DNA from: Beggiatoa alba B18LD
Lineage (GTDB): Bacteria; Pseudomonadota; Gammaproteobacteria; Beggiatoales; Beggiatoaceae
Direction: 5' to 3'
Assembly (NCBI RefSeq): GCF_000245015.1
Contig: NZ_JH600070.1
Location: 2,371,804-2,435,803, forward strand
DNA: 64,000 bases
Every line of letters begins with the position of its first letter. Position 1 is the first letter of the stretch. Below, piece after piece: positions 7,242 to 15,149 of this stretch. The position numbers and the translations under genes were made by a program. The notes below the pieces were generated by a model. The model worked only from the letters and a program-made list of their open reading frames with translations, was not told where the DNA came from and made no database searches.

Positions 7242-7940
7242 CTATTTTTTTGTGTTATTTGTCATGTTTTTATCAACAAATAAGGGTTTTAACTTTTCTA
7301 AATGGGGTTCTAAGCGGAGGGAAAGTAACGCAGAAATCGAGAATAAGGTCGATAAAACATCTAAATTGGAATCAGCTTCGCTGGCTGCTCGAATGCGTTG
7401 TAAAAAATCGTAATTAAGCGTCTGCATTTCCTCATAGAATTTCTTTAAGCCGTTCAATTCTAAATCAGCAACACCGCCATCTTGATGGATGTAGTATTGT
7501 GTTAATAAATAAGAGGAGGTAACACGAAAGACGATTTCATCTAGCGAGGCAAAGGGTAGGTGATAATGTGCCATGCCACGCATTTTTGAAAGTAAAGGAC
7601 AGGCACTTGTTGCCATCACAAAGCCAATTAATGCCCGCAATCCTGTTTGTGCGTCTGAGCGTTTGATATATTCCCGCTCTGGTGTTTTAACCCGTACATC
7701 GGCTGCACTACACGATAAAATCTCGCGAAATCCTAAAATAATTTCTTTTGCGTCTATTGCTGCAGGACAGTGTGAATGAGATTTAGTTTCTAAAGGACAA
7801 TTACTACATTGATGGAAATCTAATTCTGTCCACTGTGGGTAGTCTTCTTTGTTAAGGAGGTTGGGGCGGGGTCTTTCAAAATTAATTTTGTATTGTAAGA
7901 CTTTGCCATCATCCATTGTGAAAGTGTATTCAATAAACAT
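7242..7940 (-). CDS. Uncharacterised Cys-motif protein, tandem paralogue 1 (possibly DUF6901-like)
   Basis: About 232 aa, cytoplasmic by appearance (no signal or membrane segment). It starts MFIEYTFTMDDGK, then a Cys cluster FHQCSNCPL...SHCPAAIDA, a middle block VKTPEREYIKRSDAQTGLR, then CPLLSKMRGMAHYHLPFAS and helices to the end. The next gene upstream (8022-8690) encodes a close paralogue that starts at the equivalent methionine, so 7940 is chosen; an upstream ATG at 7958 and one at 7994 are also in frame. The four N-terminal cysteines could bind metal. I recall a similar domain of unknown function (DUF6901) but cannot verify this. No function is assigned. Confidence 0.8.
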   Translation of the reverse strand: MFIEYTFTMDDGKVLQYKINFERPRPNLLNKEDYPQWTELDFHQCSNCPLETKSHSHCPAAIDAKEIILGFREILSCSAADVRVKTPEREYIKRSDAQTGLRALIGFVMATSACPLLSKMRGMAHYHLPFASLDEIVFRVTSSYLLTQYYIHQDGGVADLELNGLKKFYEEMQTLNYDFLQRIRAASEADSNLDVLSTLFSISALLSLRLEPHLEKLKPLFVDKNMTNNTKK

Positions 7941-8021
7941 TTGCCGACTGTCGAACATAGTGGGGTACTCTTTGGTCACACATCGCTTATGCACATCAGA
8001 ACTTTAATCTTGATTGAGTGA

Positions 8022-8690
8022 TTAATCAAACAAATATTCTATATCTTTTAGGTGTCTTTCCAACGATAAAGACAACATAGATGAGATGGTGAATAGTGTG
8101 GCGAGTACGTTTAGGTTGGAATCTGCCTCAGTTGCTGCACGGATACGTTCTAAAAAATGATAATTAACGGTTTGGGTTTCTTTAAAACGTTGTTTTAAAT
8201 TTGTAAAGTCTAAATCTACAGCTCTGTTTTTCTTATGATTGTAATACTGTTCTAACATATAGGAAGCCGTCACACGAAAGACTGTTTCATCCAATGACGC
8301 AAAGGGTAGATGATAATAAGCCATTCCTCGCATTTTAGAAAGGAGTGGACATGCACTACTTGCCATCACAAAACCGATAATTGCACGTAGCCCTGTCTGG
8401 GCATCGGTTCGTTTAAAGTATTCACGTTCTGGCGTTTTTACATGAATATCGACTTCATGACAGGAAATAATATCGGCAAACCCAAGTAGGATTTCGTAGG
8501 CATCAATGGCGGGGGGACAATGGGAATAGTGTGATTTTTGTAGGGGGCAGTTAGGACATTGGTGAAATTCTAAAAGCGTCCAATGGGGGTATTTGTCTTG
8601 TTCTAATAGATGTTCTCTGGGTCTATAAAACTCAACTTTGTAGTTCAAGACCTTTCCATCATCCATTGTGAAGGTATATTCGATATACAT
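8022..8690 (-). CDS. Uncharacterised Cys-motif protein, tandem paralogue 2 (possibly DUF6901-like)
   Basis: The 222-aa paralogue of the downstream gene shows strong identity along the whole length: YIEYTFTMDDGKVL, FHQCPNCPL, HCPPAIDA, TPEREYFKRTDAQTGLRA, SACPLLSKMRGMAYYHLPFASLDE (quoted in part). The divergence is mostly at the C-terminus and in the lysine/asparagine-rich segment NHKKNRAVDL. The two genes are in the same direction with a gap under 100 bp, so they probably form a duplication-born two-gene operon. The Cys positions in both N-terminal clusters and the C-P-L-L motif are conserved in the pair, which argues that they matter. Function unknown. Confidence 0.82.
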   Translation of the reverse strand: MYIEYTFTMDDGKVLNYKVEFYRPREHLLEQDKYPHWTLLEFHQCPNCPLQKSHYSHCPPAIDAYEILLGFADIISCHEVDIHVKTPEREYFKRTDAQTGLRAIIGFVMASSACPLLSKMRGMAYYHLPFASLDETVFRVTASYMLEQYYNHKKNRAVDLDFTNLKQRFKETQTVNYHFLERIRAATEADSNLNVLATLFTISSMLSLSLERHLKDIEYLFD

Positions 8691-10232: not shown

Positions 10233-10685
10233 ATGAAAAGAATTCTAATTATCATCAGCCTAGCATTATTTATAGGGACACTCTCCCCTTCATTTGCCGC
10301 CAACTCTACTCATGTCGAAAAGCTAAAAACGTCGAAAAACTGTCCGCGTTGTAGCTTAGATGGTGCGAGTTTAGCGGGTGCTAACCTTGCACGGGCTAAA
10401 CTGCGCGGTGCGGACTTAAGTCGGGCGCGGTTACGGGGGACGAATTTACGGGGGGCTGATTTAGTTGGAGCTAATTTGTCAAATGCGGAATTGCGTCGTG
10501 TCAATCTGCGCGGTGCAAATTTAAGCAATGCAAATTTAAGTGGTGCAAATTTACGCGGGGCTAACTTGCGAGGCGCGAATTTACGGGGCGCGAATTTGTC
10601 AGGGGCGGATATGGGTGGTGCAATTATTAAGGATGCTAAGTTAGACGGTGCAATTGGTGCAAACTTGGATGGTACAAAGCGTTAA
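10233..10685 (+). CDS. Secreted pentapeptide-repeat protein
   Basis: The 150-aa protein has a Sec signal peptide (MKRILIIISLALFIG... cleaved after SFAA) and then a short CPRC motif (residues about 33-36). About 19 consecutive pentapeptides of the A(D/N)LXX type follow (GANLARAKLRGADLSRARLR...), which form a right-handed quadrilateral beta-helix. The DNA is itself repetitive. Proteins of this kind, with a KLxxTKNCPxCxL-like leader before the repeats, are common in Beggiatoa and cyanobacteria; their role is unknown. The periplasm is the likely location. The stop codon overlaps that of the broken membrane-protein gene on the other strand. Confidence 0.9.
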   Translation: MKRILIIISLALFIGTLSPSFAANSTHVEKLKTSKNCPRCSLDGASLAGANLARAKLRGADLSRARLRGTNLRGADLVGANLSNAELRRVNLRGANLSNANLSGANLRGANLRGANLRGANLSGADMGGAIIKDAKLDGAIGANLDGTKR

Positions 10686-11196
10686 CTCATGACCCCAAGA
10701 AAATAGTCTTTGATAACCCAAATCGTTGCAACGCCTACCGTAATTGCATTGATTATCCATGTTAGAAAAAATCTTCTTTCATTAATGGGTTGTTTCCAAA
10801 TTTTTTTAATTGTTAGCAATTCTATAACAGCATTTGTTGCACCTCCAAGTATCGGCACAGAAAACCATGTAATAAGATGAAACGTTCCCCAATTTAAAAA
10901 GAAGTAAAAAAGCGAGTTTGGGAAGATTTCCCATGCAATGCCAGAAAGCGGAAGTAAAATAACCCCTAATAAAGCTGAAACAAAATTTGCTGTAACTGTA
11001 TAGTAAATAGCATTTTTAAAGTTTAGATTAAATAATCGTTTAAAAATAATAATTCAATCAATAGACTTAAAGATATTATTGGAACTGAGAGCATATAGCT
11101 TTCAACGTATAAAGCAGGCTATACGACATTTGCATAAACCGTTGGTGTTATTAAAAAGCTTAGTAAAACTAAGCATATTGTTTCTTTCTTGTCCAT
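10682..11196 (-). pseudogene. Broken small integral-membrane protein gene with signal peptide
   Basis: On the minus strand from ATG at 11196 the frame reads MDKKETICLVLLSFLITPT (signal-like), then ANVV followed by an in-frame TAG, and continues PALYVESYMLSVPIISLSL. Near 11045 one base is missing, and the coding text resumes in another frame as FNLNFKNAIYYTVTANFV, then hydrophobic segments (LLGVILLPLSGIAWE, FHLITWFSVPILGG, TWIINAITVGVATIWVI), ending GVMS at TAA 10682-10684. About 171 codons in total with 3-4 membrane helices. One stop (perhaps TGG to TAG) and one frameshift make it a pseudogene. Family not named; similar small proteins occur in cyanobacteria. Confidence 0.7.
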
Positions 11197-11244
11197 CGTG
11201 AATATATATCCCAAAAAACCATTTTTTATTGTATTTAGATTAGT

Positions 11245-12627
11245 CTAATCCCCTAATAAATCGCGTAAATCTTCCAATTCAGCAACTGCGCTTTCTAGAA
11301 ACGTCCAAATACTTTCGTGTCCTGCATAATATATTGAGTCAATTGGCTCATGTGTCTCTTCTTGCAAATAAGCTAGGTCTAAATTATCTTCATTTTTCGC
11401 TAACCATTGGCGACTATAACTATGCCAGCGGCTTGTTTTGCCTTCTTCTTGGCGTGGGCTTGTGCCATAACAATCTTCGCCGAAAACTGTTTCAAACCCC
11501 ATTAAATGTTGTCGATTTAACCGCAGATGTCGCCCAAAACCGACTGATTGGCTGCGCATATCGTAAAACCATACTTGTTGTGTGCATTCTAGTGCAGATT
11601 CACTGCGGTAGAAAAACAGTACATGGGCAGGAATTTGATGCGGATAAAATACGCCGTGTGGTAATCGTAAAATGGTATGTACTACAAAATTATCTAATAG
11701 TTCTTTTCTAACACGTTGAGCATGTCCTGTTGCATGTAACAAACTATCAGGCACAATAATCGCGGCACGTCCTTTAGGTTTTAAATTACGATAACAATGA
11801 CGTAGCAAAGCTAAAGTTTGGGTCTGTTGCACTGTTTCGTGATGGATATCTGTCACAGAAACAAGGGAGCTTAGAACCAAATCAATATGGGGTACTTGAT
11901 GTCGCTCCATTAATAAGCTGTTTCCCCATTGCACAGGAAGATGTGGTTTATCATCAATTTCATGTAATAAACAGTGCATGATGGCTAACCGTTGACGGGT
12001 TAAATCTTGTTCAATCCCTAAGAGGGTTGATTTTGCATAGGTTGGTATCGTTTCATCTTCTGGTTGTGTTTCATAATCACAGGTCACTTGTATATATTGG
12101 TCAGCAGCAACTAAAAAGCCTGCAATGTCTGCGACGGGGTCATGAATCACTTCACCCGCTTGGGGTTGTGTCAAAATAATGAGGGTATCTACAAGTGAGC
12201 GTGGTGGCACAACGTGCTCGTGGTCATCCAGTGCATAGCGGTCTAAAAACTCGCCATAAATTTCCCCTAAATCGTCAATGACTACATCATCTAAGATACT
12301 TAAGACATCAATCAGTTGATTTAATTCCTGTGCATTTTTAAGTTGGGTACGAGCTTGTGAAAAAAGCGCGGCGATACTGGGGTGAGCACTTTGTCTTAAC
12401 GTCATTAGTGCTTGTTGATAATAAGCAAGTCGTGAGGGGGTTGGCGTTGTTAATAAAACACGCCAGTTTAAATGAACAGGCAATTGTTCAATTAAATCGA
12501 TAGCGGGGGCTATTTTCAAAAATAGTAGCCACGTTAAGTTATCCACGTACTCATGATAAGCAAGCCCATTTTCTTGTAACGCTTTTGCGGGCTCCCAAAG
12601 TTTTTGTGCAATCTCTCGTGTATCCAT
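11245..12627 (-). CDS. Orphan HsdM-like protein with degenerate methyltransferase motifs
   Basis: The 460 aa follow EcoKI-type HsdM from end to end: N-terminal helical domain (KLWEPAKALQENGLAYHEYV, LTWLLFLKI), SAM-fold region, then PKGRAAIIVPDSLL, LRLPHGVFYP and the C-terminal WHSYSRQWLAKNEDNLDLAYL. Motif I, normally DPxxGTAGFL, reads DPVADIAGFL. The catalytic NPPF, expected after DLVLS, is replaced by SLVSV. SAM binding and adenine methylation are therefore unlikely. No hsdR, hsdS or nuclease gene is adjacent. This is either a remnant whose reading frame has survived or a protein with a new DNA-related or regulatory role. The intact 460-codon frame favours retention. Confidence 0.85.
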   Translation of the reverse strand: MDTREIAQKLWEPAKALQENGLAYHEYVDNLTWLLFLKIAPAIDLIEQLPVHLNWRVLLTTPTPSRLAYYQQALMTLRQSAHPSIAALFSQARTQLKNAQELNQLIDVLSILDDVVIDDLGEIYGEFLDRYALDDHEHVVPPRSLVDTLIILTQPQAGEVIHDPVADIAGFLVAADQYIQVTCDYETQPEDETIPTYAKSTLLGIEQDLTRQRLAIMHCLLHEIDDKPHLPVQWGNSLLMERHQVPHIDLVLSSLVSVTDIHHETVQQTQTLALLRHCYRNLKPKGRAAIIVPDSLLHATGHAQRVRKELLDNFVVHTILRLPHGVFYPHQIPAHVLFFYRSESALECTQQVWFYDMRSQSVGFGRHLRLNRQHLMGFETVFGEDCYGTSPRQEEGKTSRWHSYSRQWLAKNEDNLDLAYLQEETHEPIDSIYYAGHESIWTFLESAVAELEDLRDLLGD

Positions 12628-12883
12628 ATTACCTTTATAATAAACTGCTAGCCGTTATCTCACTAGCATTATGCAATAACACGTCCTAAAGATAGAATTT
12701 ACGCAATATTTGTGTTTTGAAATTGCGTAAAACTGGTTATTTACACTGATATAGTATGATGAATACAGTGTGTTCTGATCCATAGGCGTTTACAGCGTCC
12801 TTGTTCCGTACCTCGTGCTATCATGCATGATACTATTAAGCACATAATAAGTGTTTTGTCACCTGAGAGAGGTCGATTATTAA

Positions 12884-13312
12884 ATGATTACTGTCAAAGA
12901 GCTCATGAGTCACCGATTATACACACTCAAGCCAACAGACACGGTTCATCAGGCACGGCAATTAATGCTTGATAAACATATCCGTCATATTCCTATTGTG
13001 GACAATCATGGCACATTTTTGGGATTAATCACAAAACATGACATTTTAGCACTCTCAGTTTCAGAACTTGCAGATATAGAACCGCAAGAGCGTATAGAAA
13101 TTGAATCGGGGATTCCGCTCAGTCAAGTGATGCTAACAGAGGTTGTCGTTGCACAAGAGAGCACCAATTTATTAGAAGCTGCTCGTTTTATCTTAGAACA
13201 AAAACATGGTTGTTTACCTGTTTTTAGAGATCAACAGTTGACAGGAATGTTAACCGAAGCAGATTTTGTCAAGTTAGCCATTCACTTAATGGAAAGACTC
13301 GCCCAAGCATAA
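12884..13312 (+). CDS. Tandem CBS-domain protein
   Basis: The 142 aa consist of two CBS motifs making one Bateman module: residues about 7-60 (MSHRLYTLKPTDTVHQAR..IPIVDNHGTFLGLITKHDIL) and 75-135 (VVVAQESTNLLEAARFIL..LPVFRDQQLTGMLTEADFV). Such modules bind adenosyl compounds (AMP, ATP, SAM) and regulate other proteins. There is no additional domain, so any effector must be a separate protein. It is located 100 bp before apbC, in the same direction, and could share its transcript. Cytoplasmic. Confidence 0.9.
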   Translation: MITVKELMSHRLYTLKPTDTVHQARQLMLDKHIRHIPIVDNHGTFLGLITKHDILALSVSELADIEPQERIEIESGIPLSQVMLTEVVVAQESTNLLEAARFILEQKHGCLPVFRDQQLTGMLTEADFVKLAIHLMERLAQA

Positions 13313-13413
13313 ACGCATAAAGAAAACAGATTATTGTTGAACAGGTATATTGAATAGAATCGTTGCTTAAGGATTAAGAGACTGTCCATATTTATTTTTA
13401 GGAGAAGTTCCCA

Positions 13414-14505
13414 ATGACCGCTATTACACAACAACAGGTCGAATTTGCCATTCAATCTTATGTAGACCCCTATCTACAAAAAGATTTAATCTCTGCAAAA
13501 GCGATTAAATCTATTCAAATTGATGGCGATAAGGTTGCGCTAGATATTCAATTCGGTTATCCCAGTAAAAGTTATAACGCTGTGCTGACAAAGCAATTAC
13601 AGCAATTAGTCAGTGGTATCCAAGGCGTTAGCACAGTAACTGTCAGTATTAGCAATAAAGTCATTACACACGCCGTGCAAAAAGGCGTTAAACCCCTACA
13701 AGGGGTTAAAAATGTTATTGCTATTGCCTCAGGTAAAGGTGGTGTTGGTAAATCAACGACAGCTGTTAATTTTGCATTAGCACTTGCCGCAGAAGGGGCA
13801 ACCGTTGGTCTTTTAGATGCAGATATTTATGGACCTAGTCAACCACGTATGTTAGGCGTGAAAGAAAAGCCAGAATCTAAAGATGGTCGGACATTAGAGC
13901 CGATTATTCGCTACCATTTGCAATCCATGTCTATTGGTTATTTAGTAGAAGAAGATGCCCCCACGATTTGGCGGGGTCCTATGGTAATGCAAGCACTAGA
14001 ACAATTATTGCGGGATACTAATTGGCGCGATTTAGACTATTTAGTCATCGATTTACCCCCTGGAACAGGTGATACCCAATTAACCTTAGTGCAAAAGATT
14101 CCTGTGAGTGGCGTAGTTATTGTGACCACGCCACAAGATATTGCCTTGATTGACGCGCTGAAAGGCTTAAAAATGTTTGAACAAGTCAACGTGCCTGTTT
14201 TAGGCATTGTGGAAAACATGAGTATCCACATCTGTAGTCAATGCGGACATGCCGAACATATTTTTGGCGTTGGCGGTGGTGAGCGAATGGCAAAAGAGCA
14301 CAAGGTTGATTTTCTAGGCGCATTACCGTTAGACATCCAAATTCGTGAGGATGCTGATAATGGGCAACCGACGGTTATTGCCAATCCTGACGGCAAAATT
14401 GCACAAATGTATTTAGAGATTGCACGCCGTGTCACAGGTAAACTGTCATTGCAAGCGAAAGACTATAGCAATAAATTCCCAACCATCATGGTTCAAAATA
14501 CCTAA
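13414..14505 (+). CDS. apbC: Iron-sulfur cluster carrier protein ApbC/Mrp
   Basis: P-loop ATPase that binds and transfers [4Fe-4S] clusters to apo-proteins in the cytoplasm. N-terminal MIP18/DUF59 domain at about residues 5-80; then the ParA/MinD-like NTPase with deviant Walker A ([14 protein letters not shown], around residue 110), [25 protein letters not shown] and the C-terminal CxxC (ICSQCG) that holds the cluster. The 363-aa length is typical. A GGAG ribosome-binding site precedes the ATG. It is followed by a strong intrinsic terminator, so it is transcriptionally separate from dcd. Confidence 0.95.
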
Positions 14506-14572: not shown

Positions 14573-14582
14573 TATCACGACA

Positions 14583-15149
14583 ATGGGCATTAAATCAGAT
14601 AATTGGATACGCCAAATGGCGGAAAATCATGGCATGATAGAGCCATTTACCCCTGATCAAGTTAAAGCAGATGCATCAGGGCGAATTGTTTCTTATGGCA
14701 CGTCCAGCTATGGCTACGACTTGCGCTGTGCAAATGAATTCAAAATTTTTACCAATATCAACTCGACAATTGTTGACCCCAAGCACTTCGATGCAGGCAG
14801 TTTTGTCGACGTTATTGCAGACATTTGCATTATTCCGCCAAACTCCTTTGCACTCGCTCGTAGTGTTGAATACTTCCGCATTCCCCGCGATGTGCTCGTT
14901 ATTTGCGTTGGCAAGTCCACCTATGCACGGTGTGGCATTATCGTCAATGTCACCCCTTTAGAACCTGAATGGGAAGGACATGTAACCCTAGAGTTTTCCA
15001 ACACAACCCCGCTACCCGCTAAAATATATGCTAATGAAGGCGTTGCCCAAGTTCTGTTTTTAGGCGCGGATGAATTGTGCGAAACCTCTTACAAAGATCG
15101 AGGTGGAAAATATCAAGGACAACGTGGCGTAACATTGCCTAAAACTTAA
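14583..15149 (+). CDS. dcd: dCTP deaminase
   Basis: Deaminates dCTP to dUTP, feeding dTMP synthesis in the cytoplasm. The 188 aa from [21 protein letters not shown] have the family's usual start and length. Conserved blocks: [56 protein letters not shown] (contains the nucleotide-binding Ser-Arg and catalytic Glu region; quoted in part). An upstream in-frame ATG at 14535 is inside the preceding terminator and lacks homology, so 14583 is the start. Confidence 0.96.

Follow-up and report, generated by a model that had tools for sequence, protein, structure and literature searches.

A probable pseudo-methyltransferase derived from a type I restriction-modification subunit is retained, often beside divergent CBS-domain and ApbC genes, in the Beggiatoaceae

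The window analyzed here, the whole stretch of 64,000 nucleotides from Beggiatoa alba B18LD (C2:2,371,804-2,435,803), carries on its minus strand, at 11245..12627, a gene for a protein of 460 aa that begins with ATG and has zero internal stops in the ORF list. We refer to it as pseudo-HsdM; it was recognized by ORF call, phmmer, Pfam and PADLOC, and has orthologues in 30 further genomes of the same family. Across an intergenic region (12628..12883) it faces three plus-strand genes identified by locus comparison: a protein with two CBS domains (12884..13312), an ApbC/Mrp protein that is a NUBPL-type P-loop NTPase (13414..14505), and a dCTP deaminase-like protein, Dcd (14577..15149). A plus-strand frame of 125 aa lies antisense within the pseudo-HsdM gene (11334-11711) and is probably due to chance.

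Our searches bore out the first-pass annotation of the gene as an HsdM homologue without the NPPF motif. The protein matches the EcoKI M subunit (2y7c_B) with a phmmer E value of 1.2e-62, the Pfam N6_Mtase model at 1.2e-39, and the PADLOC MTase_I model at 7.6e-105 over residues 1-457; the latter two models match 28/28 aligned family members, and the motif IV position of the window protein reads SLVSV. The same annotation had aligned the protein with EcoKI to its C-terminal tail, which holds in part: the homology is strong, but the alignment is broken, with the best stretch covering residues 2-397 and the tail stretch weak, and a segment before the last helix (LPEP, around P482) is absent from all 27 core members. 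The protein is also shorter than EcoKI M (460 versus 529 aa). The Pfam HsdM_N model gives 19.1 bits, below its cut-off of 24.5, and reaches E 0.001 in only two of the 28 aligned members; the N-terminal part of HsdM is still aligned by model. The NCBIfam hsdM equivalog TIGR00497 scores the window protein at 22.7 bits against a cut-off of 242.75, a threshold applied without an EcoKI control. A weak Pfam match to Anamorsin_N (E 0.07) is not significant; we take this domain to be a dead methyltransferase fold of iron-sulphur assembly, and apbC lies nearby.

The AlphaFold2 model of the window protein (mean pLDDT 81.4, pTM 0.82) was consistent with a complete HsdM fold. VIA-align placed it on HsdM 2okc_A with Z 42.0 and rmsd 2.7 (391 aligned) and on EcoKI M 2ar0_B with Z 34.5 and rmsd 2.1 over 277, and the first Foldseek row was 2y7c_B (E 1.1e-29). 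Because the model input combined the window protein with 16 relatives, all of them active, the prediction leans toward the active fold and informs on the overall fold rather than on the state of the pocket.

Orthologues are widespread within the family. A protein search of 57 genomes, comprising that of B. alba and its relatives, matched 41, active HsdMs included, and close orthologues were recovered from 25 family genomes (own included), with 78% identity in the genus mate and 38-47% in the others. A profile search of 42 family genomes added two more (G404 and G405; the stop reported in G404 falls beyond the protein end). Four very divergent members (G007, G014, G016 and G030) were likewise recovered with a profile. 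Open orthologues are thus found in 31 of 42 family genomes, as 27 core and 4 very divergent members, with 31/31 frames open, and they cover 19 of the 25 genus codes of the family. The G016 member has only about 26-28% identity; its gene is divergent from a CBS gene as in the window, an arrangement that supports orthology despite the long branch. The most altered member (L109 5814-6959, from G007) encodes 382 aa and has lost the motif I Asp; its frame is open and it is recognizable by profile. Of the 11 family genomes lacking the gene, four gave no match to the profile and seven gave only NPPF-bearing matches (15/15); some of these absences may be gaps, since five of the 11 genomes are 52-87% complete.

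NPPF-less relatives were not encountered outside the family: the best 26 loci in 369 sampled genomes of the class all carried NPPF, as did the four relatives that the window protein retrieved from named genomes and the 13 from a scan of viral contigs. In a tree of 74 rows, the 27 core and four divergent members separated from 43 NPPF-bearing HsdMs with branch support of 100/99, a split with which a quick tree agreed, and the core members alone were supported at 93/95. The tree is unrooted, the four divergent rows sit on long branches, and it omits L128-L130, a second 325-aa frame of L124, the near-copy L167, further copies of the same genes and L003, which is the other HsdM of the B. alba genome and has NPPF. 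A single loss of NPPF, in or before the family ancestor, would be the simplest reading of this topology, though not one that it proves.

The alterations that set this clade apart include the catalytic and target-base residues. Counts refer to an alignment of the 27 core and 43 active sequences, in EcoKI numbering unless window numbers are stated. The readings of motif I as DPVADIAGFL (residues 163-172; 12112..12141, minus strand) and of motif IV as SLVSV (residues 254-258; 11854..11868, minus strand) in the first-pass annotation were both correct. NPPF occurs in 43/43 active HsdMs and in neither the 27 core nor the 4 divergent members. The check for orthologues sharing SLVSV gave a divided answer: the loss of NPPF is common to all 31 orthologues, but the literal SLVSV was seen only in the window protein, and the family form is S-x-L-[VLI]-F. 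N266, P267, P268, T285 and F292, each present in 43/43 active sequences, are replaced in at least 25 of the 27 core members, F292 in all 27; judged from its spacing to the following PGG, F292 is probably the Phe that packs on the SAM adenine. Replacement also affects G349, K351 and N353, which are conserved among the 12 active sequences nearest to the clade.

In motif X (F-T-P-R), Thr151 is lost in 27/27 core members, whereas the Pro is kept in 27/27 and the Arg in 20/27. The motif I glycine G180 is lost in 24/27; the window protein retains it but, like its sister, has Asp at the first motif I Gly (G177), a residue kept in 23/27. Most relatives retain a DPLAGTASF-like motif I, and that of the window is more degraded than most. 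The description of the protein as being without a SAM motif is therefore accurate for the window and a few relatives but not for the clade, in which the motif I Asp (D173) is kept in 27/27. Among the other cofactor acids, the core members keep the motif II Glu (E216) in 27/27 and the motif III position N248, as D or N, in 26/27. According to passages of the CamA paper (PMC8187626), the acids of motifs I, II and III contact SAH in that enzyme. The four divergent members have lost the motif II and III acids, and ligand binding therefore cannot be a requirement of the whole family. The clade also has conserved residues of its own (window numbers): W234 in 25/27, S253 in 26/27, L255 in 25/27, P329 in 27/27 and H335 in 23/27, and 36 of the 427 well-filled columns are invariant among the 27 core members. 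In the C-terminal helix (residues 437-458; 11254..11319, minus strand), located from the alignment and the model, the heptad leucines L444, L451 and L458 are invariant in 28/28 aligned members, and most other positions vary.

These altered sequences are maintained by selection. NG86 dN/dS ranged from 0.083 to 0.441 in eight within-family pairs, with a ninth pair (L016-L019) saturated for this method, and maximum likelihood gave 0.067-0.501 for the same eight. The neighboring CBS, ApbC and Dcd genes had omega values of 0.024-0.297 in seven of those genome pairs, and that of pseudo-HsdM exceeded ApbC in 5/6 pairs, Dcd in 3/3 and CBS in 2/5. These ratios point to a constraint looser than that on housekeeping genes, yet clearly purifying. 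Pairwise protein distances tracked those of ApbC (rho 0.85, 136 pairs of 17 genomes) and Dcd (rho 0.87, 36 pairs of 9 genomes), and more weakly those of CBS (rho 0.41, 153 pairs of 18 genomes); because the pairs are not independent, these values are taken as no more than an indication that descent was mainly vertical. With orthologues present and dN/dS well away from 1, the earlier notion of a dead but conserved M subunit is supported.

The gene also has a conserved chromosomal position. A CBS gene divergently adjoins it in 17 of 25 core loci, with two small predicted frames intervening in one; ApbC follows CBS in 13 of these 17 and Dcd is present in 8, some contigs ending earlier. In three of the 25 loci ApbC is divergent without CBS, in one CBS and ApbC lie ahead in the same direction, and in four neither adjoins. 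The link with CBS is strong but not obligatory, since two of those last four genomes (G006 and G024) keep a CBS orthologue elsewhere. The intergenic region of the window contains a perfect 10-bp inverted repeat, TTTACGCAAT/ATTGCGTAAA, with a 14-nt spacer (12698..12731), the only such place in the genome; the sister genome has other repeats instead, including a different 9-bp repeat. No shared operator was found in the intergenic regions of the 17 loci, compared by eye, or among the inverted repeats of the window and its sister. Promoter and terminator scans of the region gave no more than shuffles, and Rfam found nothing over 11000-13500.

We consider it somewhat more probable than the alternatives combined, at roughly 55%, that pseudo-HsdM is a pseudo-methyltransferase, descended from an EcoKI-like HsdM whose catalytic activity was lost, most simply once, and inherited since then mainly vertically under purifying selection. 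A disrupted catalytic motif together with purifying selection, the combination that defines such proteins, is what the family displays. The replaced residues imply that it is unlikely to methylate DNA and would have lost its role in restriction-modification. An HsdM ancestor would have shed NPPF, the target-base pocket and the LPEP segment to become a chromosomal gene of the family; selection has preserved the fold and the leucine heptad and, in the core clade, the cradle of acids. Working through its N-terminal domain and a C-terminal coiled coil, such a protein could be a scaffold or a regulator, standing alone or associating with itself; alternatively, it could contact another protein partner. 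The old cofactor pocket may respond to an adenosyl ligand. The most speculative step is the target: the protein might act on the divergent CBS-ApbC genes, at the level of expression or of activity; their conserved arrangement fits regulation of, or by, the neighbors. The complete proposal, in which a domesticated dead HsdM serves the family as a core regulator outside defence, sensing an adenosyl ligand or holding a complex together, and controls CBS-ApbC, is put forward only tentatively.

The main rival to a pseudo-methyltransferase is a neofunctionalized enzyme that still uses SAM, now to modify a protein, an RNA or a small molecule, and that carries S-x-L-[VLI]-F in the place of NPPF. Many class I methyltransferases acting on non-amino substrates have no NPPF, and such an enzyme would be consistent with the near-complete retention of the cofactor acids, with the first motif I Gly in 23/27 members, and with the conservation of the replacement motif itself, in which S253 and L255 are nearly invariant. 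However, the loss of the motif X Thr and of F292 throughout the core, and of G180 in most of it, disfavors ordinary SAM binding. Also counting against it are the Asp that the window protein and its sister carry in place of the first motif I Gly, the divergent members without motif II and III acids, and the lack of any partner enzyme or pathway consistently adjacent beyond CBS, ApbC and Dcd. We regard this alternative as rather unlikely.

The first-pass annotation proposed instead that a dead M subunit could bind DNA or an S subunit and might act as an anti-restriction decoy or regulator. Such a decoy would affect the type I systems of its host by competing for HsdS or HsdR. The annotation's observation that neither hsdR nor hsdS lies near the frame was confirmed, as none of the HsdS or HSDR_N matches of the genome falls inside the 64-kb window, and its question about hsdS elsewhere is answered by HsdS matches at three other places (C2:195-196 kb, 522 kb and 1,438 kb); HSDR_N matches lie at 199 kb, 517 kb, 2,053 kb and 3,343 kb. 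One of the HsdS-like domains (G000 C2:1438483-1438986) sits in a 1178-aa frame apart from the two type I loci, and is perhaps, as a guess, type IIG-like. Type I loci elsewhere in the genome, the HsdM fold, the retained C-terminal helix and at least one HsdS domain somewhere in 20 of 29 carriers would all be consistent with a decoy. Against it, the other nine carriers had no PF01420 (HsdS) domain in a search of 36 family genomes, a set without G404 and G405. These nine (G003, G004, G009, G012, G018, G022, G023, G028 and G029) have an estimated completeness of 85-100%, one being a single-contig genome, and in eight of them no HsdM-like match other than pseudo-HsdM appeared at E 1e-10. HSDR_N had no match in three (G004, G009 and G022); this model also matches many short frames, so that absence of HsdR is not firm.

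The C-terminal deletion bears on the same question. In passages of a study of Thermoanaerobacter tengcongensis HsdM (PMC3047542), the C-terminal helix is required for HsdS binding, a 10-residue C-terminal deletion still co-purified with HsdS, and deletions of 21, 30 and 40 residues did not; a title cited in PMC6158711 (Powell et al. 2003) likewise concerns the HsdM C-terminal region and EcoKI assembly. The helix is kept in pseudo-HsdM, but the LPEP segment before it is gone from every core member. A general dependence on HsdS is ruled out by the co-occurrence data, which argue against an HsdS-bound decoy. Binding to an S subunit is supported by neither line of evidence, and the decoy, against which the loss of basic positions described below also weighs, is improbable.

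Less probable still is a DNA N6-adenine methyltransferase that remains active with an unusual motif IV, as the preserved fold and cofactor acids would allow: N266, P267, P268 and T285, invariant in the 43 active sequences, are each replaced in at least 25 of the 27 core members, and nine of the 29 carriers offer no HsdS to give specificity. A further candidate role is that of bait: phage DNA mimics such as Ocr and ArdA counter restriction by binding type I methyltransferases, and pseudo-HsdM could attract proteins of this kind. In its favor, complexes bound to Ocr and ArdA are among the best structural matches of the model, and of 24 basic positions that are conserved in the closest active HsdMs the dead clade mostly keeps 13, making nucleic-acid binding by pseudo-HsdM possible. 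The other 11 are mostly lost (R18, K137, K143, K259, R279, K288, R326, K351, K389, R390 and K469), and the gene persists where HsdS is undetectable; we give this idea very little credence. Simple decay of an old hsdM, the first idea tested, might explain the degraded motif I of the window and the 11 of 42 family genomes in which the gene was not found, but is rejected as scarcely credible given that all 31 frames are open, the NG86 omega values, the newly conserved residues and the conserved position.

Pseudo-HsdM can be compared with several known systems. It shares with EcoKI-type HsdM the whole fold, the N6_Mtase domain, the cofactor acids and the C-terminal helix; unlike it, pseudo-HsdM has no NPPF, a replaced target-base pocket and a deleted LPEP segment, and sits on the chromosome beside CBS-apbC with no linked hsdS or hsdR in the window. 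The nearest idea in the literature appears to be the eukaryotic pseudo-methyltransferase METTL14, presented in passages of PMC6112310 as the dead partner in the METTL3-METTL14 m6A writer. Both have a methyltransferase fold and a disrupted catalytic motif, whereas METTL14, as described there, is eukaryotic, carries an EPPL motif and has a known active partner. CamA, an orphan gamma-class adenine methyltransferase, resembles pseudo-HsdM in its gamma-class fold (7lt5, Z 24.4), the motif I-III acids and the lack of a restriction enzyme, but is active, with NPPY and its own target recognition domain, in the passages of PMC8187626 that describe it. The MAD2 methyltransferase of the methylation-associated defence system has distant HsdM-like similarity, and its model NF047738 (NCBIfam) scores the window protein at 32.8 bits against a cut-off of 720.

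Among the matches listed in the literature searched (titles and abstract openings), we found no description of a dead HsdM family, and none of those matches concerned a regulator that arose from a subunit of a type I restriction-modification system, although relatives of enzymes that have lost activity often turn into regulators. As PADLOC scores 28/28 aligned members as type I methyltransferases, pseudo-HsdMs could be miscounted as active defence genes. The family forms a natural series, from members with a near-complete motif I to those that have lost the cofactor motifs, and includes HsdS-less carriers, so that the domestication of a defence protein can be put to the test.

Elsewhere in the window, two paralogous minus-strand genes lie side by side (7242-7994 and 8022-8690; 250 and 222 aa) and are also paired in the sister genome (cluster c11). 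A pentapeptide-repeat protein is encoded at 10233-10685, with relatives in 8 of the 29 compared stretches, the window included.
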